A stretch of 64,000 nucleotides of DNA. It comes from Ophioderma brevispina (lineage: Eukaryota; Echinodermata; Ophiuroidea; Amphilepidida; Ophiodermatidae). A program made the position numbers and the translations under genes. Under the pieces are notes generated by a model. The model ran no database searches. It was not told the origin of the DNA and saw only the letters and a program-made list of their open reading frames with translations. Where the stretch lies: assembly GCA_023653785.1 (NCBI GenBank), contig JAMKCH010012649.1, positions 1 through 64,000 on the forward strand, written 5' to 3'. Within the stretch, counting starts at the first letter, position 1; every line of letters begins with the position of its first letter. Positions 41,695 to 63,130 of the stretch are shown here, piece after piece.

Positions 41695-42535
41695 TTAACC
41701 CCTCGTCTACCGAAGGGGGGTGGTTACCACCCCCCTTCAGGTTTTTTTTCCCCGGCATGCTAAAACCCCCTTTTTTGGTGCCAAATTTTTAATGTGATTG
41801 CCAATTGACATGTTCCCCTCCTTTAATCGAAAAACAACCATCCACCAGGGTATATGTAAATACAGGGTGATCCCAAAGTGGATCGATAGGGGGGGTGCAG
41901 ACCCCCCCCCCCATCGAGAGAGAAGTACCAACATGCTAACACAAGCACAGGAACATCACAGCCCCTTGATTTTTGGTACCATATATAGGCTCTGGTCCTC
42001 CTCTTTCCTTGATACCAAAATGAGTACCAACATCCTAGCATTACGTCACAAGACGTCAAAAGTTCGCATGGCCGCAAACTGCCACATTTCCTCCATAGAC
42101 AACACACAGTGAAAAATTCAATTTTTCGCCAAAAAGCTAGAAAACTCAGATTTTTCCATTTTTCAATGCGGTTTTGACTCTACTTGTGGGACAATTCTAG
42201 TTTTTTATATCATGAATCATTTTAGAGCTATAATAGGGTGTTTGAGTCCGCGAAATTGCGAAATATCATTTGCCACCCTATATTCATATTTTCGTACTTT
42301 CCTCACATATGACATCATGGTGACGTCATAATGAGGTGGATTAGTACTTATTTTGGTATCCCCCCACAACCCCAAAATCGCAATGGAACGATGAAACTCT
42401 AAGCTATCCTGTGGTACCAATTTAACAAGGAATCGGGTTTTCAGTAACGAAAATCACAGGGGGGGGTGGTAACCACCCCCCCCCCCCTTCGAGAGTTTTG
42501 TTACAAAAAATGGCTCAGGTAATACGAGGGTTTAA
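41695..42535 (+). mobile_element. piggyBac-like non-autonomous element, complete
   Basis: Bounded by TTAA (41695-41698 and 42532-42535), with ends CCCTCGTCTACC and inverse GGTAATACGAGGG. A GGGGGGTGGTTACCACCCCCC dyad sits just inside the left end, with a related dyad at the right end. TTAA followed by CCC is the usual start of piggyBac-type termini. There is no transposase frame in about 840 bases. It is inserted in the tail of the minus-strand LINE at 42531-42671, whose TTAA at the site served as the target. Confidence 0.7.
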
Positions 42536-42671
42536 GTCCTTTCTTGAAGGTAAGCAGTGATATAGCAGAACGGAGTTCAGATGGTAGTGAGTTCCACAGT
42601 GTGGGAGCGGTGAGAGAAAAACTGCAGTTGAAAGCAGATTTCAGACCTTTTTGATTTAAACTTTGGAACAG
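42531..42671 (-). pseudogene. LINE ORF2 C-terminus (downstream half of split LINE)
   Basis: On the minus strand this reads FQSLNQKGLKSAFN, then LTAPTLWNSLPSELRSAISL and FKKGLK. This is the typical end of CR1/L2-like LINE proteins ('...SvaAPtLWNsLP..lRsa.sl..FKk.LK'). The upstream half lies at 53360-53550, beyond the 10.7 kb insertion. The 3' end is cut by the piggyBac-like element. The reading frame matches that of the distant half. Confidence 0.85.
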
Positions 42672-42672
42672 T

Positions 42673-42960
42673 GTTGGCACGCACTTCATAACAAAAACGC
42701 ACTTTGTAACAAAATTGTTACGAACTGCGTTAATCTCTCTTGTGATAGAACAAAAAAGGGACAACTTCAACGCACTTCATAACAAAATTAAAAAAGTGAT
42801 GAAATTTTCAAAGATTTTCCATTTAAGAACGTTACTCCACACGAAGTTGTTACGAACTGCGTTAAGCTCTTTTGACAAAACAAAATAGGGACAGCTTCGA
42901 CGCACTTTGTAACAAATCTATTTTGACGAAATCTTGAAAGATGTCCATTAAAGAACACTA
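42673..42960 (+). repeat. Left terminal inverted repeat of the giant element
   Basis: About 290 bases pair with 53068-53358 in reverse. They are themselves built from two tandem versions of a block containing CGCACTTTGTAACAAA, GTTACGAACTGCGTTA and AAAGGGACAACTTC. The block ends at AAAGAACACTAACTCG in both arms. Confidence 0.85.
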
Positions 42961-43490
42961 ACTCGCCCCGCATCGACTCGCCCAATACCAACTCGTCCAT
43001 AGCAAATCGCCCCATACTAATTCGTTCCAGTATTGTCTCATCTCATATCAACTCGCTCCATACCAACTCCTCCCATTAACAAACTCGCCTCAATATTAAG
43101 TCACCCCATATCGACTCGCCCCATATCAACTCGCCCTAATTATTAATTCGCCTATATCAACTCTCCCAATATCAACTAGCCCGATACCAAATATGCCAAA
43201 TATTACTTCGCACATTACGAAATGGCCTCGTATGAAATCGTCCAATGGTCATTTTACTCGCCCTATTATTAACTCGCCCAGATCAAATCGCCACGATTTA
43301 ACTCTCCCCATTTCAACTCGGCCCATATCAATCGCCGATACCAACTCGTCCAATTATTAACACGCCCAAATCGAATCACCTCTTACCAATTCGCCTTATT
43401 AACAACGTTCCCATAATCAACTCGCTCATTATTAACTTCCCACATGGCACCTCACCCCAGACCATTTGACCCCAATATCACTTCGCCACC
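42955..43490 (+). repeat. Minisatellite arm, ACTCGCCCCATATCA units
   Basis: Some 25-30 degenerate units of about 17-20 bases with consensus near ACTCGCCCCATATCA. The reverse-complement array is at 52815-53085, and stray units occur near 45500, 46465, 49200-49270, 51200, 51400 and 52610. No coding sense. Confidence 0.85.
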
Positions 43491-44489
43491 TTCATTCAGC
43501 CCACTTTATAATTCAAATATCTTTCCAAGACGATATAACTTCAGCAACCCACTTTGTTACGAAATAGTTACAAAGTTTATTAAGGTACTACTGCGGTAGT
43601 ACATGACAACACAACAAATCGAGAGAAGTATAAAAATATATTGAATCTTGATAAAACGTACTCTCTTAAAATGAAAGAGTGAAAAATCACTCTGAATTTC
43701 GAGTAATTTTAAATTAACTCTAATCGAGTGGCTTTTAGCTCTAAAAGAGCGAGAAAATGCAACCTGACACCTTAACTCGCGGCTAACCGAGCTCACTCTG
43801 TTACCGAGTGGCTCAAAATGCCACTCTTTTCGGAGTGAAGCCCCTCTGATCTCTTAATCGACCGGATTTTTTAGCTCTAAAAGAGTTAGAAAATGCTCAC
43901 TCTTTTTTCGGACGAGTTAAGTGAGAGCGTCCAGCAAACAGTTGAACGAAGTTGAAATTAGTGAAGAATCATAGATATCTTCACTGGTGACAGTATATTA
44001 TATTGTATGTGTCTGTCACAGTTCATAGCATTTACAGACAAAGTGTGGAGGAGCATTAATGTTCTTACTGTATTATTCACTCGTACTACGGTAGTCTCGC
44101 CAGCTAGGCTTACACATATACAAACGCACAATCATGCTGTCACGGGCAGGCATGTATATACACGTCATGCATTGCCACAATCATGCATGTCTCACTGAAT
44201 CATGCCAATGATGCGCCACAATATTCATTCATGTCACGATGCTATGAATTATGACCTACACATACAATATACTCACCAAACAAACAAAATTCACAAAGAA
44301 TCACAACTCTATAAGAGTGACTAGTTCACTCTAAAAAGGAGTTATCAGTTCACTCTTTCCTTAGAGTTATTTTGTTCACTCTTTATTTTGAGTGGATCTC
44401 ACTCTAAAAGATGCTTTTTTTTTTTTTTTTTTTTTTTTAGCTCTAAAAGAGTGAGAAAATGCTCACTCTTTTTCGGAGTGAACTAATAG

Positions 44490-44494
44490 CCAAT
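44490..44494 (+). promoter_or_regulatory. CCAAT box ahead of candidate first exon
   Basis: AGCCAATCAG lies 38 bases before the ATG at 44533. The surrounding CGCCGCAAATCGCG is GC-rich against an AT-rich background, as expected for a short promoter. This is suggestive only. Confidence 0.35.
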
Positions 44495-44532
44495 CAGAAA
44501 CGCCGCAAATCGCGTGATTATTTTCGAACAAC

Positions 44533-44614
44533 ATGGCGGACGAGTTAAGTGAGACCGTCAACAAACAGTTGAACGAAGTTGAAATTAGTGAAGAAATCAT
44601 AGATATCTTCACGG
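44533..44614 (+). CDS. Candidate first coding exon inside a transposon
   Basis: AACATGGCGG gives a good initiation context. The frame begins MADELSETVNKQ, continues with an acidic stretch (EVEISEEIIDIFT) for 27 codons plus one base, and meets a consensus splice donor G|GTGAGT. The piece looks like a real 5' exon ending in phase 1, perhaps of a transposase. A second copy at about 43908-43980 has lost the ATG and carries indels, so it is dead. I found no following exon in the window, and the function is unknown. Confidence 0.45.
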
Positions 44615-45009
44615 GTGAGTATATTATATGTGTCGGTCACAGTTCATGCCACAATCATGCATGTCTCACTGAATCATGCCAATGATGCGCCACAATATTC
44701 ATTCATGTCACGATGCTATGAATTATGACCTACACATACAATATACTCACCAAACAAACAAAATTCACAAAGAATCACAACTCTATAAGAGTGACTAGTT
44801 CACTCTAAAAAGGAGTTATCAGTTCACTCTTTCCTTAGAGTTATTTTGTTCACTCTTTATTTTGAGTGGATCTCACTCTAAAAGATGCGTCACTCAGCTG
44901 GCTCTTTTTTGGAGTGAGATTTCACTCTTTTAGAGTGGTTTTTCACTCTTTCGTTTTAAGAGAGTATGATTTAGAACTATGTTCGTCCTACCTTAATTCA
45001 GCCCACTTA

Positions 45010-46164
45010 AATTATCTTTTATTATTCAAGAAAGTTGGACTTAAGGGGAATTTTCGTATCCCTTAAGGAATCTTTTGTTAGCGGTTTATTCCATCAAAAG
45101 ATATGAATAGTAATTTATGAAAATGAGGTGGAATAACAAAGGATATGAATATTAATAAATTTAAATAACAAAAAGAGCTCATTATAAGCTAATGAATGAT
45201 TAATACTGTTAGTATGATGATGATGATTTTTTTTTTTTTTTTTTTTTCGTTTTAAGAGAGTATGATTTAGAACTATGTTCGTCCTACCTTAATTCAGCAC
45301 ACTTAACTTACAAATACTTTAAATATCTACCCATTACCATATACTAGAGTAACACGCTTTGTAACAAAAATGTTACATGGTTCATTAATTCCTTTTTAAA
45401 AGGGGCAACGTCAACGTACTATGTAACACAATTGTTACAAAGCGTTTTAATTAAACTGCTGATGCTGCTGCTCTATATGGCAGTATGAGAATGATAACTC
45501 ACCCCATTTCAACTTGCCCCCATATCAAATCACCCAGACATATTTCGGCGCACTTTACTAACTACAAAAGGCAAAATAACTTCCCGTAACGATAAACCTT
45601 TAGCAACTCACTTTGTAACAAAATTTTAACAAAGTGCGCTAAAAGTTTTAAAAGAGAGAATTTTTACAAAGTGCATTAAGCTGCTGCTGCTCTATATGGC
45701 AGTAAGCGATAACTTCACACTAACACAGATGAAAAGTTAAAAAAATCTTGTCATTTAATATTTGTAGGATTATTAGCTAACATGTAAGTCAACATATGTT
45801 TCTACAATGAACTCCGATATGATGAATATAAAATATTATGGCACCAATGGGTTACTATACTTTCCAAATTTATGTCACTAGGTATAATGCATTATGAAAA
45901 TTATTATTATTATTATTATTATATGACTAATGGTGGATTGAGGGGGAAATTATCTTTTATTATTCAAGAAAGTTGGACTTAAGGGGAATTTTCGTATCCC
46001 TTAAGGAATCTTTTGTTAGCGGTTTATTCCATCAAAAGATATGAATAGTAATTTATGAAAATGAGGTGGAATAACAAAGGATATGAATATTAATAAATTT
46101 AAATAACAAAAAGAGCTCATTATAAGCTAATGAATGATTAATACTGTTAGTATGATGATGATGA
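45010..46164 (+). repeat. Direct duplication around a 21-base T-run
   Basis: The segment AATTATCTTTTATTATTCAA to GATGATGAT occurs at 45010-45226 and 45948-46164. The preceding transposon end (CGTTTTAAGAGAGTATG and about 50 more bases) is repeated on either side of the T-run (44952 and 45248). So one version lacks about 650 bases that the other has, as two alleles placed in series would. (ATT)n and (AT)n tracts lie at 45899-45922 and 46164-46180. Confidence 0.75.
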
Positions 46165-47699
46165 TATATATATATATATATTGCACCGTTTAAAATAAAA
46201 CTCGGACGGAAAAAGTTAAAATGACCCCCTTTGTAACAAAAATGTTACAAAGTGCGTTAGAACTTGTAAAAAGGGACAACTTCAACCCACTTTGTAACAA
46301 AATTGTTACAAAGTGCGTTAAGCTGCTGCCGCTTCTTTATTTGGCAGTAAGAGATAATATCAACACACTAACACAATAGAAAAGTGTTTTAAAAATCTTG
46401 AATCTTGAAACATCTTGCGATTTTAATAGGAAATTATTCGTCAGACTTGCTTTAACTAAACCCATACCAACTCGTCCACTTTAACACTTAACTGCATAAG
46501 GGGTTTTCACTTCCGTTAGTGCATAAGACTTGTCCTAGAGGCCCATGCATTATAAAACCCAAATGATTTTTAGATGAAATCCACCACAAGGTAGAAGGCT
46601 TCAAAGACATCAACAATAAGGAAATACAAAGTGAACAAATTGGTTCAGTAAGAAAGCTAGGGGCAAACTATTAATTTCAACATGCGTCGAAATTGGCGAA
46701 AGACTTTAATTAGTTTCTGCATATTCTACGGCGTTGATTCACCTAGACTTGTGTTGATTATTTTAGTTGGTAAAGAATGAACTATATTTATCATATTAGG
46801 CAAATATAAACATCTCATGCAATTTCATATTTTTAGGGATACTTGTTTGTTAACATGTATTTTACAATAAGTTTCTACAGTGAACCGCGATATGATGAAT
46901 ATAAAATATTATGGCAGCAATCGCTTTCTCTACTTTCCAAGAATTTGGAATGTTTATTACTTTGTTTATGTCGCATTATGAAAATTAGAATAACAGTTAT
47001 TCTATTAATTTGTTTTGGTTTGTTTTGGATTTTTTTCTGTATTTTTTTGTCTATTTTTTGTTTCATTTGTGTCATGGACAATTCTGTTGATGCATAATGG
47101 GAGCTCCAAGGGTCCCATGTTTATTAAAGCAAAAACGACACGATGGATTTGTATTTCTGGCCTCAATTCAAGCACAACTAAAAGAGAGACAAATACAAAA
47201 CAATATTCAAAATAGATGAGTTGACATGTGACGTCAACGCCGGGCAACGAACAAAGCACTGCCCGGCAGTATGCGTGAGCATCTGCAGGGCTTGTGCTTT
47301 TAAAATTCGCGCTCAATCAGGCGTAATAAGGCTATTGAATGCTGTAACTGTATGGACATATTCTTCGCACCGCTAACATGTCAGTAGACCAGGTGCTAAC
47401 TTTGTGTTTGTAAACATTGATGTCACCTCATCTATATTGCAGGGTTTAAATACGACGACCGAAAAGAAGAAGATATGGCCCCTAGCAGGCCCCCTCATGC
47501 AGTAAAGTGTTAACTCAGCCCACTTTACAACTTAAAAATACTTCAAATATCTTCCCATGGCGATATACCTCAACAACCCACTTTGTAACAAAATTGTTAC
47601 AAAGTGCGTTAAGTTGCTGCTGCTCTATATGGCAGTAATATATAACTTTCTTACAGTAAGTAACATTATGGAGAAGTATATCCCTTTACATAAAGGAAA

Positions 47700-47866
47700 A
47701 TGACTAGCAACCTGACGATCACCCCAAAAGGGGAGGTAGCGGTATTTGTGGTGTTAGATCTAGGAGTACTAATCTTCCCCTGTAAACCCAATGCAGGAGT
47801 CCGCTCCGTGATTTTGAAAAGTGGCAAAAAATGGCATTTGGGGTTTTAAGGGATATGGCGGTAAAT
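47700..47866 (+). repeat. Short version of the TACGTC repeat
   Basis: AATGACTAGCAACCTGACGA through GAGGTAGCGGTATTTG matches 31840-31890. It is then joined directly to a match of 32465-32565 (GTTAGATCTAG, GGAGTCCGCTCCGTGATTTT). About 600 bases of the long version are missing. Confidence 0.75.
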
Positions 47867-48571
47867 GATAACTTCAACACACTAACAAATTTAACGCACT
47901 TTGTACGATTTTGTTACAAAGTGGGTTGAAGTTGTCCCTTTTAAAAAAATAACGCACTTTGTAACAATGTTGTTACAATGTGGGTTGCTGAGGTATATCG
48001 TCATGGGGAGATATTAAAAGTATTTTAAAGTTGTAAAGTGGGTAGAGTTAACACTTAACTGAGTAAGGGACCTGCAAGAGGCCCATCTTTGGCTTTTCGG
48101 TTCGCGTATTTTAACGCTGTAATACAGTTAGTTTAAGTTCTTTGTATTTGTCTATCTTTTAGTTGCTTTGCATTGCCGCAAAAATAATCAAATCCATAGC
48201 GTCGTTTTTGCGTTAATTAGCATGGGTCCCTAGAAGCCACCCGAAAGTGCCATTGACAAAAATGAAAAAAAAAAAAAAACATTAAGTTATTGTGATTCTG
48301 ATTTTCATAATGCATACACCTAGTGACATAAACAAGTAAATGAGCAATAGCAAAATTCTTGCAAAATATTTTATAATTATTCATCATATCGCAGTTCACA
48401 GTGAAAAACCTATGATAAATTACATGTTACCAAACAAGTAACCCTAAAAAGAAATATGAAATGGCAAGTTTTTAAATACTTTTCTATTTTGTTAGTGTGT
48501 TCAAGTTATCCCTTACTGCCATATAGCACAGCAGCAGCTTAACGCACTTTGTAGACTTTTTGTTACATTCT

Positions 48572-48645
48572 GCGCCTTGAGCGCCATTTTTGGTGGATTT
48601 GTGCGCAATATAAATCCGCATTATTATTATTATTGTTATAGTGGG
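48572..48645 (+). mobile_element. LINE/SINE 3' tail fragment
   Basis: TTGAGCGCCATTTTTGGTGG is followed by GTGCGCAATATAAATCCG and (ATT)n. This is the usual 3' end of many invertebrate LINEs and SINEs. It interrupts one dyad of the core array. Confidence 0.6.
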
Positions 48646-50219
48646 TTAAAGCTGTCCCTTTTAAAAAATAACAATTTTGCTTCAAATTGGGTCGCTGAGG
48701 TACATCGGCATGTGAAGATATTTAAAGTATTTTTAAGTTGTAAATTGGGTTGAATTAACACTTAACTGCATAAGGTCCTGCTAGCATGGGTCTAGGAGCC
48801 CCCCCCCCCGGAAATGTCAATGCTAAAAATGAAAACACAAACAAACGAACTTATAGAGTTACTCTGATTCTGATGTTTATAATGCATACACCAAGTTACA
48901 TAAACGAAGTAAATAAAAAAATCTTGGAAAGTATGGCATTATATTTTATATTCATCATTTCGCAGTTCACTGTAGACACATATGGTAAATATTTTTTTTT
49001 ATTTTTATCATATTCAATTAAACACTTTTTTTTATTTTGTTAGCTTGTTGAAGTTATCCCTTACTGCCATGTAGAGCAGCAGCAGCTTAATGCACTCTGT
49101 AACAATTTTGCTACATAGTGGATTGCTAAAGTTATATCGTAATGGACATATATTTTAAGTATTTTTAATTTGTAAAGTGGTCTGAAATAATGTAGGGGGG
49201 TTTGATATGAGGTATGTTGAAACGGGGCTCGCTAAGAATGGGGCGAGTTGGTAATGGAGCGAATTTGTTAGTGTGTATGAGTTCTCCCCTACTGCCGTAT
49301 TGAGCAGCAATATGAGCTCAACCATTTTATAACAATTTTATTACAAAGTGGGTTGCTGAAATCATGTTGTCATTGGAGGTTATTTAAAAAATTTTAATTT
49401 ATAAAGATTTTTATATAATTCTGTATCGTGTTACTTAGTGTAGTGAAGTTATAATTTACTGCCATAAAGAGCAGCAGCAGCCTAACGCACTTTGTAACAA
49501 TTAACATTTGGTTACAATGTTGGTTGAAGTTGTCCCATTTAAAATTTTGTAACGCACTTTGTAACAATTTTTTACAAAGTGGCTTGGTGAAGAATATCGT
49601 CATGAGAAGATATTTAATGTATTTTAACTTGTAAAGTGTGCTGAGTTAACAATTAACTGCATGAGGGAGCATCCTAAGGGCCCATTTTTGTGTTTCGGGC
49701 CGCGTATTTTAACGCTGCAATATATTTCGATTGTATTGTTTTGTATATGTCTATATTAGTTGCGCTTGCATTGAGACAAACATTCAAATCCATCGCGTCG
49801 TTTTTGCGCTAATTACCGTGGATCCCTAGGAGCCCCCCTTATGCACGTGTCCATGACAAAAATAAAAAAGAGAGTTACTGTGATTCTGATTTTCAGAATA
49901 TATTGCAGCGTTAAAATACACGGACCGAGAGCAAAAAAATGGGCCCCTTATGCAGGTAAGTGTTAACTCAACCCAATTTACAACTTCAAAATACTTTAAA
50001 TATCTTCCCATGGCAATGTACCTCAGCAACCCAACTTGAAAGAAAATTGTTACAAATTGCGTTATTTTTTTTAAAAGGGACATCTTTATTCCACTATGTA
50101 ACAAAATTGTTACAAAGTGCGTTAAGCTGCTGTTGTTCTGTATGACAGTAAGGGATAACTTGAACACACTAGAAACAAAATAGAAAAGTATTTTAAAATT
50201 CTTGCCATTTCATATTTTT

Positions 50220-50521
50220 TTAAAGGTCCCAGGAAATGCAAATAGAATTAATGTGGTTTGCGTCAAGTCTAAAAGGAGGAGCTTGAAAGCATTCAATATT
50301 TGGGTTGGTGATGACATCATTAGCTAAATTATTGATTTTTCAGAGAGTAATAGAAAATTCCAGGTGACTGGTGTGAATCTATTCATGACACTGACTGAAA
50401 ATCAATAGTTTCACTAATGATGTCACTGGTAGTGTATTCTTTTTTTCTAGCCCTGTTTTATTGGAATGGATGTCCCGGTAAATATTTGGAGGTGGTTATC
50501 ATCTCATTCTGGGACCTTTAA
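50220..50521 (+). mobile_element. TTAA MITE (AGGTCCCAGGAAATG), copy 1
   Basis: 302 bases between TTAA sites, with inverted ends AGGTCCCAGGAAATG and CATTCTGGGACCT. A second copy in the opposite orientation is at 53781-54084. The two share CCCAAATATTGAATGC-type and AATGATGTCA blocks. There is no coding frame. It disrupts a unit of the core array. Confidence 0.85.
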
Positions 50522-51960
50522 GGTTACATGTTTTGTCAGATTACCATAGATTTCTACATGAGCTGCGATATGATGAATATAAAATCTAATGCTATATTTC
50601 TCAGATTTTTTTGTTTTGGTATTATGTTATGGACTAAGTGTATTCCTTATGAAAATCAGAATCCGGTACTCTATATTTTTTGTTGATTTTGTCACGGGCA
50701 CTTCCGGTGGGCTCCTAGACCCATGCTAATTAAACACAAAAAATACTCTATGATTTTTTTTTTTTTTCTTTTTGGCTGCACTTCAAGCGCAACTAAAACA
50801 TATACACATACAATAAAAAAATTAACAAAATATATCGCAGCGGTAAAATACACGGACCGAAAGCAAAAATGGGCCCCAGCAGTAACCCTTCCTACAGTTA
50901 TTGTTAACTTCAACCCAATTACAACTTAAAATACTTTAAATATATTCACATGACGATGTAGCCTCAGCAACCCACCACTTTGTAACAAAATTGTTTCAAA
51001 GTGCATTTATTTTTTAAAAGGGACAGCTTCAACCCACTTTGTAACAAAATTGTTACAAGTGCGTTGACTGCTGCTGCTCTATATGGCAAGTAAATAACTC
51101 AACTACTCTGAGTAATACAATAGAAAAGTATATAAAAATCTTGAATTTTTCAAACCTTTATGTTTTAGGACAATTCTCGTCAGATTGCTTCAACTCAACC
51201 TATACCAACTCGCCTCGCTTTAATTCAGCCCCTTTATAATTAAAAAAATGTTTTAAATAACTTTCCATGACAATATAATAGATCAACCCACCTTGTAATA
51301 AAATTTACTATAAGAGGTTAAGCTCATACATACTGCTGCTCTATACTTCAGTAAGAGAGACCTCCAACACACCAGAAAAAATTCGCCACCTTCCCAACTC
51401 GCCCATTAAATTGCGGATCCCCATTTCAACCCACCCATATCAAATCGCTCTACCCCCTATTCAAACCTCTTACAAATTAAAAATACACAACAATCTGCCA
51501 TATGATCACTTTAGCAACCCAGTTCAACCCACTCTGTACCAAAATTGTTTAGGAAGCTGCTCAATATCCCTTAAGTAACTACATGTAAAAACAATCATAT
51601 GATACCGCACACAGGAATAGCGGTATTGTGTTGTTAAATCTACTAGCACTTTCCCAATACCACAAGGTATGGGTGAAAAGTCCCAAAATTGGCCATGTAA
51701 GATTGATACGGATATAGAGCACAGCATCTTACACTCTTTGGTAAATAATTTATTACATATAGTGCATTTGCCTCTTTTTTAAAGTTGAACCTCCCTTATA
51801 AACAACTTTACAAGTGGGTTGCCAAAGTTATATCGATATGGCAAATGTTAGTTTTTTATTTGTAAAGTGGTATTAAATAGCTAGGGTAGGGCGATTGATA
51901 TGAGGTGAGTTAAATGGGGCTCACTAATACTGGGTCTAGTATACAAATATTGACTGCTAT

Positions 51961-52080
51961 GAGGGGCACGGTAAAATTATAGGCCCAAGGTGATGTCCAA
52001 AACCAGACAATGCCCGAAGCGAAGCGAGGGCATAGATGGTTTTGACATCACCTTGGGCCTATAAATTTAACCGTGCCCTC
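51961..52080. mobile_element. Hairpin MITE (GAGGGGCACGG)
   Basis: Arms of about 43 bases: GAGGGGCACGGTAAAATTAT, then AGGCCCAAGGTGATGTC, and the mirror GACATCACCTTGGGCCT with CCGTGCCCTC. The loop contains CCCGAAGCGAAGCGAGGGC. Related GGGCACAGT words follow at 52313 and 52335. Confidence 0.75.
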
Positions 52081-52814
52081 GTTGTGACAGAAAGGCGACC
52101 CGGTGGGTAAAGGATAACCAGTAGCAAAGACTCCTCTTCCTCAATCATTTTTGTTTTATATACCGGTATATATATAGATTCTTCTCATCTGATTGGTTAA
52201 AAGATTTCCCGAACTGACAAATATGCCTACAAGCTATTTGCAACGATTATCGTACAGGGGACACGCACGCGCGCGATCTATGAACACGGTGTTGAGACTG
52301 TCCTATTTCCGGGCACAGTCGATTGCCATGCCCCGGGCACAGTTCATCGTGACGTCATCTTGATAGAAAAAAGGGGTCCAGCTATTTTAATGACTCTACT
52401 TTTAACCAGAAGAGAGGAATCTATATATGAGGTATATAATGGTAATAGAGCGATTTTGTTAGTGTGTTGGAGTTCTTTCTTTCTGTCGTATAGAGCAGCT
52501 GTATGAGCTCAACCACTTTTTATTTATAATAAAGTGGTTTGCTGAAGTTATATTGTCATGGAAAAATATTTAAACTATTTTTAATTTATAACGTGGGCTG
52601 AATTAAGGTGGGGCTAGTTGGTATGGATTGAGTTGAAGCAAGCCTGACGAGCAATGTGTTAAATGGTAAAGTTTTTCAAAATTGAAGATTTTTATATACT
52701 TCTCTATTGTATTGTGTTACTTAGTGTAGTGAAGATATATATATTTTACTGCCATATAGAGCAGCAGAAGGTTAAAGGAAAACCCGTACAACGAAAAATA
52801 TTATACAATAAGCG

Positions 52815-53085
52815 ATTGAAGTGAGCATTGATACGAGGCGAGTTGGTAATGGGCGAGGTAATACTTGGCATAGTTGTTATCGGGCTAGATTATATTGGAA
52901 GAGTTGACATGGGAAAATTAATACTGGGGCGAGTTGGTATGGGTGAGTTATTATGGAGCGAGTTGATGGGCAAGTCAAAATGGGGCAAGTTAATAATACT
53001 GGGACGAATTAATATGGGGTGATTTGCTATGGATGAGTTGGTATTGGGCTAGTTGATATGGGTCGAGTTAGTGTTCTTTAATGTA
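52815..53085 (-). repeat. Minisatellite arm, inverted copy
   Basis: About a dozen units with consensus near TGATATGGGGCGAGT, the reverse complement of the array at 42955-43490. It ends at CGAGTTAGTGTTCTTTAATG, the mirror of the left arm junction. Confidence 0.85.
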
Positions 53086-53358
53086 GAGCTTTGAAGATTT
53101 CATCAAATTTGATTTTGTTACAAAGTGCGTCGAAGTTGTCCCTTTTTGCTCTGTCACAAGAGCGCTTAACGCCGTTCGTAACATTTTTACGTGCGGAGTA
53201 ATGTTCTTACTAGGAAGATCTCTGGAAAGTTCATCACTTTTAATTTTGTTACAAAGTGCGTCGAAGTTGTCCCTTTTTTGTTATGTCACAAGATGGCTTA
53301 ACGCAGTTCATAACAATTGTGTTACAAAGTGCGTTTTTGTTATGAAGTGCGTGCCAAC
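53068..53358 (-). repeat. Right terminal inverted repeat of the giant element
   Basis: Pairs with 42673-42960 along its whole length, ending GAAGTGCGTGCCAAC. Confidence 0.85.
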
Positions 53359-53359
53359 A

Positions 53360-53550
53360 GACGTGTGGTATCCATTGCAGAGCGCAAGCTGTAGTGACTT
53401 TGTTTATACAGTAAAAATTATGAGGCAAGGTAGTTTGGTCCATATCCATTTAAGCATTTGAAGACATAAAGAAATACTTTGTACAAAATCCTCTTGTTCA
53501 CAGGGAGCCAGTGAAGTTCTTTTAAGTACTGGCTATACTTGATGGGAAAT
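53360..53550 (-). pseudogene. LINE ORF2 segment (upstream half of split LINE)
   Basis: The minus strand reads YLKELHWLPVNKRILYKVFL, then LNGYGPNYLA, and later SLRSAMDTTRL. These match the conserved 'LhWLPV..RI.YK.ll...LnG.aP.YL...SLRS' stretch of CR1/L2-like LINEs. One in-frame stop follows YLAS. The frame continues directly into the half at 42531-42671 once the insertion and one AACAG are set aside. Confidence 0.85.
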
Positions 53551-53589
53551 AACTAGCGCATATAATGAGAACACTGTAGTGCTATAATA

Positions 53590-53784
53590 ATATTTTTGTG
53601 TCGCTAAAATTGCGAAATATGAATTTTACACCATATATTCAGTATTTTCATACTTTCCTCAACATATGACGTCATAGTACCAAATTTATAGGAATCAGAT
53701 GTTCAGTAACGAAAATCACAAACCACCCCCCTTCCCCCTTCGGGAGTTTTGTTACAAAAAATTGTTCAGGTAGACGAGGGTTAA
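53590..53784 (+). mobile_element. piggyBac-like element, right end
   Basis: Matches the last 290 bases of 41695-42535 with gaps (ATTGCGAAATAT, CTTTCCTCA.CATATGACGTCA, CAGTAACGAAAATCACA, TTTTGTTACAAAAAAT, GTAGACGAGGGTTAA). The terminal TTAA also serves as the insertion site of the next MITE. Confidence 0.7.
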
Positions 53785-54084
53785 AGGTCCCAGGAAATGA
53801 AATGATAAACCTACTCCAAATCTTTGTTGGGACATTCCATTGCAATACACAGGGCCAGAAAAAAGAATACACTACCAATTGACATCATTTGTGAAACTAT
53901 TGATTATAAGTCAGTGTCATGAATAAATTCACACCAGTCACCTGGCATTTTCTATTACTCTCTGAAAATCAATGGCACCCCAAATGATGTCATCACCAAC
54001 CCAAATATTGAATGCTTTCTCGTCCCTCATTGTAGACTTGACACAAATCACATCAATTCTATTTGCATTTCCTGGGACCTTTAA
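53781..54084 (-). mobile_element. TTAA MITE (AGGTCCCAGGAAATG), copy 2
   Basis: 304 bases between TTAA sites, with good inverted ends AGGTCCCAGGAAATG and CATTTCCTGGGACCT. Inverted relative to 50220-50521. The open frame at 53972-54352 runs out of it and is accidental. Confidence 0.85.
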
Positions 54085-54465
54085 AGCCACGATTAGTCAA
54101 TCTATCCGATTCAAAATGCCCATTTTGTCTCTAAATTGCTCGAAATCAACACCATATATTACTGTTCTAAAGACACTAAAGCATTTTAAAGCGGTCTTGA
54201 ATATGCCATTTACGACTGTTTCTATACCCGACTTTTATTATAGTAATCAATGCATAAAATTGCAATTTCTTGAAATATTGGGCATTTACAGTGGTCTTTA
54301 CTACAACAATTTCCAATACAACAGTGCAAAAATGGACTTTGATGGTAAATAGTGGGCCCGATTTGTTTATATTTTGAAGAGATAGCTGATAGTGGCTTTA
54401 AATCGTAATTTAAAAATCGATCTTTACGAATGTTTTTATTCTTAGGATGTCAACGAAGGTTAATG

Positions 54466-60546: not shown

Positions 60547-61535
60547 TTAGGACCGGCAGAATTAGCTCAACTGTATTAGGCCTACTAGTCGCTATCTCAA
60601 TTCATAAGTTTCTGAAATAGGCGTCTACGGTCTACATGTGCGCGGGGGAGTTGCTGCGTATTTATAACTCGCAGGCTATGCATTTCCTTTACGCGTTGTC
60701 ATGGTTCAGTCTGATGAGCTTGTCTGGCGGGAATATCCTGGCGTAGGCTTGACGCAAAGAAAAGGAATTGGAAGTGGAAGTCCAATACTTTCAAAACGTT
60801 AGGTGTTAACTTTTCCCTTAATGTCAATTCCCTTTATGAACTTAATTTTACCCCTAAACTTGGTCAGATTGAGCAAACCCTGAACTGTTGGAAACATATA
60901 GCGGAGCGGCCGAGCCTTGAAAAGTCCTCTAGTTTTCGAGTTACCCCTCCCCACCGTACAACAAAACACAACCACCTTTATTTGAAGGATAAATATATAA
61001 GATTGAAGAAAATGATGATTGTGGTTGAAATATTTGGTGGCAGGGATGATTTCTATGCCGAAAAATGAAATTTGGGCTGCAAGTTAAGCGAAATTATTAT
61101 TTTTTATATTTTTTAAGGTAAAATATTACAATCTTATTTTTATAGTATCCTTTTTGTTATTGATATAGGCTTTATACATTGCATAAAGGCTTCAGGTAAT
61201 ACTCGTTGTGGTGACATGTGATAAAAAAGGATGCTTTTTTTAGGAAAAAAGGTGATTTTAGGGCTAAAATTCTATACCCTTTATATATTGAATAAAACAG
61301 AAATCTATAATATAAATGTCAGAGATTGATAGTATTGCATGATGATTAAAATTTGTTTTGCTAAGAAATTAATAAATCTTGATACTCTTAAGTTTTTAGC
61401 CCAAAAACGTGATTTTTTTACCCAAAAAACACCCCTGCCACAAAATTTTTGACCACAACCATCATTTTTTAAAATTATTTATTACTATCTTTCGAATAGA
61501 AGTGGTTGCGTTTTGTTGTACCGAGGGGAAGGGTT
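60547..61535. other. Unannotated DNA
   Basis: No recognisable gene upstream of the LINE; AT-rich from about 61080. Confidence 0.35.
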
Positions 61536-62027
61536 GTCGACAATTTTGCAGTCCAAACCGCTCCACTAATAGGAATTTATCCATTTTGGGTAAAGTTACT
61601 GTTATCAAATCCCTATTGTTACCCCAGCTTCTGTATCTTTTTTCAGTGCTTTGCTTTAATATCCCTAAAATATTTTTTAGGAGATTGAATCATCTCCTTT
61701 ATAAATTCATTTGGAATGGGGGAAATAATCGAGTCAAAAGGGATATTTTATGTAATGATTATGATAATAGTGGGCTGCGGATGATTGATCCTCTTTTGTT
61801 TTCTCAGGCTCAAAAATCTATATGGGTGAAGCAGTTGCTTGACCCTGAATACTCCAGCTTTTGGGGAAAAAAATGGAAATTTCTGTTTTGGAAAATTTCC
61901 ACTCTGACTGGACAATCTTGTTGAGGTCTGATGCTCGGATAATGTTGATCAACTCTCTAACTGTCAGCAGCTCATTGAAAGTATTAAATTATGGTACTTA
62001 TACAAAAACAAATCTCAAGAGAATTTA

Positions 62028-62178
62028 GGTAGACGTTTCATATAGAAGTCCCATTGATGCAAATGAGGTATTACCATTCATTCCGTCAAGCACTACTGCA
62101 CAACGTCATACAGCGCATGACGGAATCAATTGTAATACTTCATTTGCATCAATGGGACTTCTATATGAAACGTCTACC
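62028..62178. mobile_element. 151-base palindromic MITE
   Basis: Terminal inverted repeats of about 60 bases start GGTAGACGTTTCATATAGAA and differ at only three or so positions. Flanking AGAATTTA (62020-62027 and 62179-62186) is an 8-base target duplication, as made by hAT-type transposases. No coding capacity. Confidence 0.9.
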
Positions 62179-62187
62179 AGAATTTAG

Positions 62188-62334
62188 CAGTCGCGGATCC
62201 AGGAAGGGGGTGGAGGGGGCGCGCGCATCTCGGTAATTCTGCAAATTCTTGCAAAATCAGCCCATTTTGGACAAGTTACAGCCTTTCAGCCCCCCGGTAA
62301 TTTTGACGTTTTTCAAATCCTGGATCCGCCCCTG
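62188..62334 (-). mobile_element. CAGGGGCGGATCCAG MITE, copy 2
   Basis: A 147-base element with ends CAGTCGCGGATCCAGG and CCTGGATCCGCCCCTG, inverted relative to 29369-29523. Flanking TTTAG (62183-62187 and 62335-62339) is a 5-base target duplication. The left duplication overlaps the 8-base duplication of the MITE just upstream. Confidence 0.9.
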
Positions 62335-63130
62335 TTTAGGATGGTCAGATTTTCATCTTCAAGACCCAATTTGGTGGAATAAAAATGTTCGCTTGAAATC
62401 CAAAAAGTTCTTTTTTTACCCTGTTTGGGATGAAAAAGGAATTCGTCATATTTCGGATCTTTTCCTAGGTCATAATTTTGTTAAGACCTTTGAAGATTTG
62501 GTCGTTGAATTTGACATTCCCATTAGTGACAAAAGGAAGTATAATTTTTTAATGAATGGAATTTATTTGGATTGGTTTCAGAACCCCAAGAATATTCAAG
62601 AAAATGTTTTTGAAAAAATATCGACCTCTCTTATGAGGGAAAATAAAGTTACGAAATATGTCTACTCCATTTTAAGGGACCAGGCTCCTGTTGAGGTTGA
62701 AAAGAAATGGATTGATTGTTTGGATGTCCCAGAAGAATTGGAATGGAATTATATTCACAATGTTAATTTCAAGTGCACCATTGAAACACAATTACGGTCT
62801 TTTTATTTTAAACGTTTTCATAGAGCAATTTGCACCAATCAGTTTCTTCATAAAATTCACAGAGTTGACTCACCAAATTGTTCTTTCTGTGAAAAATTTC
62901 CTGAAACCATTTTGCACTTATTTTGTGAATGTGAAAAGGTTTCCCACTTGTGGGATGATTTATGTTTTTTGATTAATAGTGTTTCTGGGGAAAATTTTAT
63001 TTTTTCAAATTTTGAAAAAATGTTTGGGGTTACAGATTCCTCAGAACATGATGATTGTAGCGAATTCAACAACCTTGTACTATGTTTTCTATTACGGTAC
63101 CCGATGAATCTGCAATTGAACATAACATGA

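Follow-up and report, generated by a model that had tools for sequence, protein, structure and literature searches.

A very probable foldback transposon, from a family with TG...CA ends and short target duplications, interrupts a LINE fragment in the ophiuroid Ophioderma brevispina

The element and its arms

The window described here comprises the first 64,000 bases of the 77,771-base contig JAMKCH010012649.1 in the assembly GCA_023653785.1 of the ophiuroid Ophioderma brevispina (2.51 Gb, 65,844 contigs). Between positions 42672 and 53359, an element of ~10.7 kb interrupts a long interspersed nuclear element (LINE): minus-strand LINE residues end at its right edge and resume at its left edge, as a preliminary description of the locus had noticed and as is confirmed here. 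In all likelihood, an old LINE fragment was the landing site of a non-autonomous, foldback-type DNA transposon. The element belongs to a foldback family with many genome copies—of an ordinary kind, though its ends and target sites are unusual in combination—and the earlier term "undescribed system" goes too far, as this is a foldback family and not a new kind of system.

The element as a whole (42672–53359, no strand assigned) is bounded by TGTTGGCACGCACTT...AAGTGCGTGCCAACA, an outer boundary that is common to other copies. Its right end had been placed at 53355; it lies at 53359, since the other paired copies read have CCAACA as their last bases and the right-hand AACA hence belongs to the element. 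The left inverted arm (42672–43566, plus strand, ~0.9 kb) contains two ~120-bp subrepeats, a minisatellite, and an inner block, and pairs with the right inverted arm (52521–53359, minus strand). The outer 122 nt of the terminal inverted repeat are 92% alike between the two ends, and the left arm aligns with 53359–52521 at 70% over 902 columns (~0.9 kb). Tandem Repeats Finder places a 15-bp minisatellite with the consensus AACTCGCCCAATATC at 42960–43369 on the plus strand of the left arm (62% matches) and its counterpart at 52828–53069 on the minus strand of the right arm (61% matches), that is, in opposite orientation. The window copy bears the long inverted arms containing tandem repeats that are typical for foldback elements, and the order reported earlier—long inverted repeats followed by inverted minisatellites—is borne out. 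No coding sequence was found in the arms and the interior, where the longest stop-to-stop open reading frame (ORF) has 127 aa. A protein search with an arm ORF returned no relative, and nothing was found by an Rfam scan at gathering scores, by two exact scans of viral contigs, or by a search of phages with a query of 2,329 bases.

A family with common ends

With up to two mismatches, the terminal 21-mer has 236 matches genome-wide (127 forward, 109 reverse), whereas its reversed-pattern control has none at the same threshold; a chance origin of the ends is hence excluded. This search in both orientations, of the kind that the preliminary description had proposed, yields paired copies with the same outer boundaries: they start with TGTTGGCACGC and finish with GCGTGCCAACA, some with small changes. 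An arm query against the genome gave 44 matches from the best 40 scored of 574 candidates. Among the termini listed, paired copies range from 263 bp to 12.9 kb, so that the earlier picture of a single giant foldback transposon is sound in its foldback plan, with paired ends present elsewhere, and misleading in the words "single giant".

The closest comparison is offered by L010 (8,484 bp), which shares with the window element a chain of twelve collinear blocks running from one end to the other. The blocks cover 5,958 bases, and ~1.7 kb of L010 is unmatched by the chain. Shorter collinear versions are seen in L014, L018, and L009 (the last in reverse orientation), and L013 and L017 are less close. 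The longest pair among those listed, C20497 (12,874 bp), is alike to the window element over 32% of the 8.6 kb of its interior that was read and holds no ORF longer than 128 aa therein; over 12 element records, the window included, the largest stop-to-stop ORF has 178 aa. Across these 12 records and the 8.6 kb of C20497, the middle is variable and mostly non-coding, as in foldback elements generally. The records differ in copy size and in arm alignment: their first aligned arm block extends from 34 bp (L018) to ~1.4 kb (L017), with 1.9 kb in L016, which is perhaps mispaired. The 34-bp block of L018 reflects a gap of ~50 bp in one arm and not a short arm.

Three individual copies deserve mention. 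A 263-bp copy, L055 (C19365:23529–23871), carries both ends and an AGGGC duplication, showing that members the size of a miniature inverted-repeat transposable element (MITE) exist. The 3.3-kb copy L018 (C3341) is present together with its flanks twice in tandem, ~5.08 kb apart, which is likely an assembly duplication. In L022, a decayed end in reversed orientation, GGTGCCAAAACA, lies directly against the left end, just left of position 158, and hints at two elements placed end to end.

Target duplications and target preference

Besides the window copy, 21 paired copies were evaluated—an initial ten, and the eleven further pairs that emerge from the first 100 listed of the 236 termini, taken by themselves or together with the arm-query matches, with the second tandem copy of L018 not counted again. 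An exact duplication abutting both TGTTGG...CCAACA ends is present in 12 of them, with a length of 5 bp in seven and 6 bp in the other five: ACCGG (L009), GCCCC (L010), ATCGTC (L011), CGCGGC (L014), CGATA (L018), CGCCG (L024), GACGAC (C19911), AAGGAC (C20497), ACGTA (C35773), TGGGG (C58281), CACGTA (C62090), and AGGGC (C19365, read by eye). Two more pairs, L013 and L017, have a duplication with one extra base at the right, and one, C6545, is ambiguous because of a G run. A near-constant short target duplication, a further foldback trait, is hence seen in the other pairs and not in the window copy; the 5-base duplication claimed earlier fits the family but, as AACAG, is not supported for this copy.

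The dinucleotide CG lies within the 5 nt next to the end in 18 of 33 flanks against a background of 0.109 (p ~1e-9 if the flanks are independent). In a larger set, it occurs in the last 5 nt of 24 of 52 flanks versus 6 of 52 five bases further out, and C or G stands at position −4 in 44 of 52 flanks and at position −3 in the same number. The target DNA of the family is GC-rich.

Several points tell against the reading as a foldback transposon or limit its support. The abutting duplication is absent in six of the 21 pairs (L016, L022, C6259, C20926, C60803, and C14758); C20926 has TCACTC two bases in and C60803 a 4-base match one base in, and some of the six may be mispaired or have altered ends. 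Mismatched flank pairs, 110 of which were built from 10 of the 21 copies plus the window copy, reach 5 in two cases when one extra base is allowed, a control that favours the duplications by its low count but is not free of such matches. CG is still found ten bases out in 11 of 52 flanks, and the p value above is too small, since each copy contributes two flanks that depend on each other. Finally, the genome searches scored best-ranked candidates alone.

The junction with the LINE

The upstream LINE half (53358–53534, minus strand, 80% identical to P0092) ends at the Leu of DTTRL, a codon that shares two bases with the element end, and the downstream half (42531–42672, minus strand, by tblastn) resumes at the Thr of TVPKFKSK, the codon of which begins with the end base of the element. 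AACAG is indeed present at both ends (42667–42671 and 53356–53360), and counting it once yields ...DTTRL-FQSLNQKGLKS..., from which the preliminary description concluded that the LINE halves rejoin in frame. The joined frame is open but shifted: the five best BLASTP relatives among 83 homologues (P0092–P0095 and P0101) carry 8 residues here against 7 in the join, and the downstream half read in the other frame gives TVPKFKSK, identical to P0092. After TVPKFKSK, this half shifts frame to GLKSAFNCSF..., and it is this one-base frameshift a few codons downstream that makes the AACAG-once frame look continuous. Proteins alone are indecisive on the join, since the spacer varies across the 83 homologues (six have 8 residues, one has 7, and all others have 6 or fewer) and 59 of the 83 align to the joined peptide in BLASTP without a gap within three columns of the join.

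The decision comes from DNA copies of the LINE in the same genome. Of 47 matches, obtained with the best 40 scored of 2,751 candidates, 20 loci were fetched, and 17 are left without the window itself (L033) and a different repeat (L045 and L047). All 17 are uninterrupted, with AGT(G/A)A(G/C)ACGTGTGG at the site, which takes the form GGAACAGTGAGACGTG in L035 and variants elsewhere; 16 match both LINE halves and L050 matches one. Four bases, usually TGAG, are present in all 17 and absent from the AACAG-once join, whose joined form AACAGACGTG is found in none. AACAG is hence not a target duplication.

The junction is most cheaply explained by an ordinary 5-bp insertion, after which 8 bases were deleted on one side. 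Under this history, the duplication was probably GACGT, whose right copy was kept and whose left copy was lost together with three LINE bases; the likeliest surviving copy would be 53360–53364 (no strand), where the LINE copies carry GACGT or a close variant. In a target-preference score derived from 52 flanks, GACGT reaches 3.5 bits and AACAG −2.6 bits, a difference of 6.1. What weighs against GACGT is that the genuine duplication CGATA scores −4.4, below AACAG, so that the score expresses a preference and not proof. As it stands, the window copy bounded by canonical ends has no TGA between its flanks and shows no duplication, only one base being common to both, and this counts against the transposon reading itself. 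An equal number of events would be needed if AACAG had been duplicated at canonical ends and its right copy deleted after insertion along with LINE bases (AACAGTGA, 8 nt). Such a duplication would also have the length usual in the family, but its poorer target fit, at −2.6 versus 3.5 bits, makes this course of events unlikely.

We also think it improbable that the window copy entered without a duplication, be it by recombination or repair or by a transposition in which a few target bases, TGA, were deleted. Canonical ends leave the flanks sharing one base, the LINE bases tile across the join with 0–3 missing, and six of the 21 other pairs likewise have no abutting duplication; 12 of the 21, however, have a clean one. 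As a property of the family, insertion with zero duplication, which had first been inferred from the proteins of the LINE relatives, was rejected because other copies have 5–6-bp duplications. That AACAG is the 5-base duplication of an element spanning 42672–53355, with the LINE rejoining in frame and an implied empty site GGAACAGACGTG, is very unlikely: AACAG does stand at both ends of an open joined frame, the family does make 5–6-bp duplications, and 59 of 83 homologues are gap-free near the join, yet the 17 LINE copies all hold the bases missing from the join and never the joined form, the element would have to stop 4 nt earlier on the right than the other paired copies read do, and the frame disagrees with the five best relatives. 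An assembly artefact as the source of the long inverted structure can be given hardly any weight. Perfect direct repeats of 242 and 219 bp near poly-T and the 5-kb tandem copy at L018 might raise such a suspicion, but copies on other contigs carry their own duplications, and the arms differ by 8–30% and are thus not one sequence read twice.

The interrupted LINE piece of ~310 bp is itself enclosed by another repeat, which has further copies elsewhere in the genome: a direct repeat (42175–42536 and 53530–53786, 75–78% alike) with one copy on either side of the LINE fragment.

Comparison with known systems

Sea urchin TU elements have long arms with 15-bp tandem repeats and make 8-bp duplications. 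By this general description, the present family would resemble them in its 15-bp-repeat arms and differ from them in duplication length.

The foldback element Tetris of Drosophila virilis is described as having tandem repeats inside, arms that reach 1,735 bp, and a variable middle with no apparent coding capacity, and no autonomous copy of it was found (PMC4079207). All these traits are shared with the family described here, the failure to find an autonomous copy included. The duplications of Tetris have 8–10 bp, for which its authors suggested Mutator (PMC4079207), in contrast to 5–6 bp and TG...CA ends here. The Mutator/Foldback element Tm1 of root-knot nematodes, as reported, likewise has composite arms with a variable number of 13–15-bp tandem repeats, and further points of likeness in the same report are a nested insertion, paralogous empty sites, and one copy that lacks duplications and has a truncated arm (PMC3169594). 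Tm1 differs in its mostly 9-bp duplications (8–10 bp in 45 of 53), reported without a clear target preference, in its terminal motifs, and in the putative transposase of some copies (PMC3169594). In Galileo of the P superfamily, arm length is likewise altered by internal tandem repeats and other insertions, and one 9-kb copy without the transposase segment is described (PMC4168063). Its duplications are 7–8 bp with the consensus GTATTAC (PMC4168063), whereas those of the present family, at 5–6 bp and GC-rich, do not agree with a P element.

Another set of likenesses leads to the Ginger elements, as described in PMC2836005 and PMC10045372. Ginger1 and Ginger2/TDD have TGTNR ends, with which the TGTTG found here agrees, Ginger1 included; Ginger1 targets GC-rich CCGG/CCGT, and TDD-4/5 make 5-bp duplications. 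On the other hand, Ginger1 is described with 4-bp duplications and arms of ~40–270 bp—here, the duplications have 5–6 bp and contain CCGG/CCGT in some cases only—and Ginger2/TDD with 4–5-bp duplications at AT-rich RTATAY, unlike the GC-rich targets found here. Going by these two accounts, neither Ginger group combines all features of this family. The 5–6-bp duplications fall outside those of the Mutator foldbacks Tetris and Tm1 and within the 4–10 bp given for IS256 and MuDR together (PMC10045372). A full-text literature search, with Repbase and Dfam outside its scope, found no description of the present foldback family.

Proposed mechanism and significance

A transposase supplied in trans would recognize the conserved TGTTGGCACGCACTTCATAAC ends, move the element by cut-and-paste, and join it to a ~5-bp staggered cut in GC-rich DNA, giving the 5–6-bp duplications. 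Size variation and nested units indicate that arms and interior have probably become longer through duplication, unequal exchange, and insertions at later times; the differences between copies in size and in arm alignment are consistent with lengths that rise and fall through slippage and exchange, a process described in Galileo (PMC4168063). The autonomous copy that the preliminary description suggested looking for did not turn up: no transposase-bearing copy was found among the copies read, in a non-exhaustive search by ORF length over the 12 records and 8.6 kb of C20497. This counts against the scheme, and it is for this reason that we only infer mobilization in trans.

The TGTNR ends and GC-rich 5–6-bp duplications suggest a possible Ginger/integrase-type helper; for an integrase-like gene, no large ORF is present in the copies read, as judged by ORF length without a profile scan. 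That this is a foldback family with TG...CA ends and 15-bp-minisatellite arms running on an integrase-like (Ginger/Gypsy-type) transposase, and not on Mutator or P, is a tentative and rather unlikely proposal, its probability being lowered by the 4–10-bp range of IS256/MuDR (PMC10045372), which leaves Mutator possible. If true, foldback architecture would arise on retroviral-type integration machinery too.

The family is well delimited by its ends, duplications, target preference, and uninterrupted target sites. Since its duplications are shorter than those described for Tetris, Tm1, and Galileo, the helper enzyme becomes a testable question. The junction also illustrates that a short apparent duplication and an open frame can mislead, and that same-genome copies of the interrupted repeat settle such a junction.

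Interior modules and nested insertions

Repeat modules alternate in the order + − + − along the interior. Forward modules, with the palindrome CACTTTGTAACAAAATTGTTACAAAGTGCG and a CTGCTGCTCTATATGGCAGTAA block, occupy 45285–47682 (plus strand; motif scan and self-comparison, shared with L010), reversed modules 47882–49899 (minus strand; self-comparison), and forward modules again 49900–51550 (plus strand; blocks common to L010), with an inversion junction near 49900; all these edges are approximate. Inverted self-matches cover 62% and direct self-matches 67% of the element, versus 5–19% and 1–35% in five control stretches of 10.6 kb each from the same window. Four internal CACTTTGTAACAAAATTGTTACAAAGTGCG palindromes are perfect or have at most one difference; they may be extra binding sites or simply rearrangement-promoting hairpins. 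The alternating order had suggested a chimera of two fused foldback elements, which was rejected because L010 shares the order in collinear blocks; for the same reason, the order is older than the present insertion.

Part of the length is later insertion, comprising at least 43662–44975 and ~51932–52436, both absent from related copies (none of the nested units has a strand assigned). L009, L010, and L018 are without ~43660 to ~45260–45285, in which 43662–44975 looks like a TA-flanked MITE. The unit at ~51932–52436 (approximate edges) contains a 115-nt palindrome (51964–52078) and is absent from L010. A third nested unit, MITE-like and with TTAA at both ends (50219–50521), has an 87% alike inverted copy outside the element (53781–54085), and no clean empty site for it was seen in L010.

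The direct repeats of 242 bp (44173–44414/44647–44888) and 219 bp (45009–45227/45947–46165), near poly-T runs, are 100% identical, versus 70–90% for most other repeats inside the element, and represent either a very recent duplication or an assembly fault.

Further along the window, 61400–63130 holds the remains of another LINE, with an ORF (62237–63130) whose relatives are at most 82% identical over 88% of its length, many of them with PF13966.

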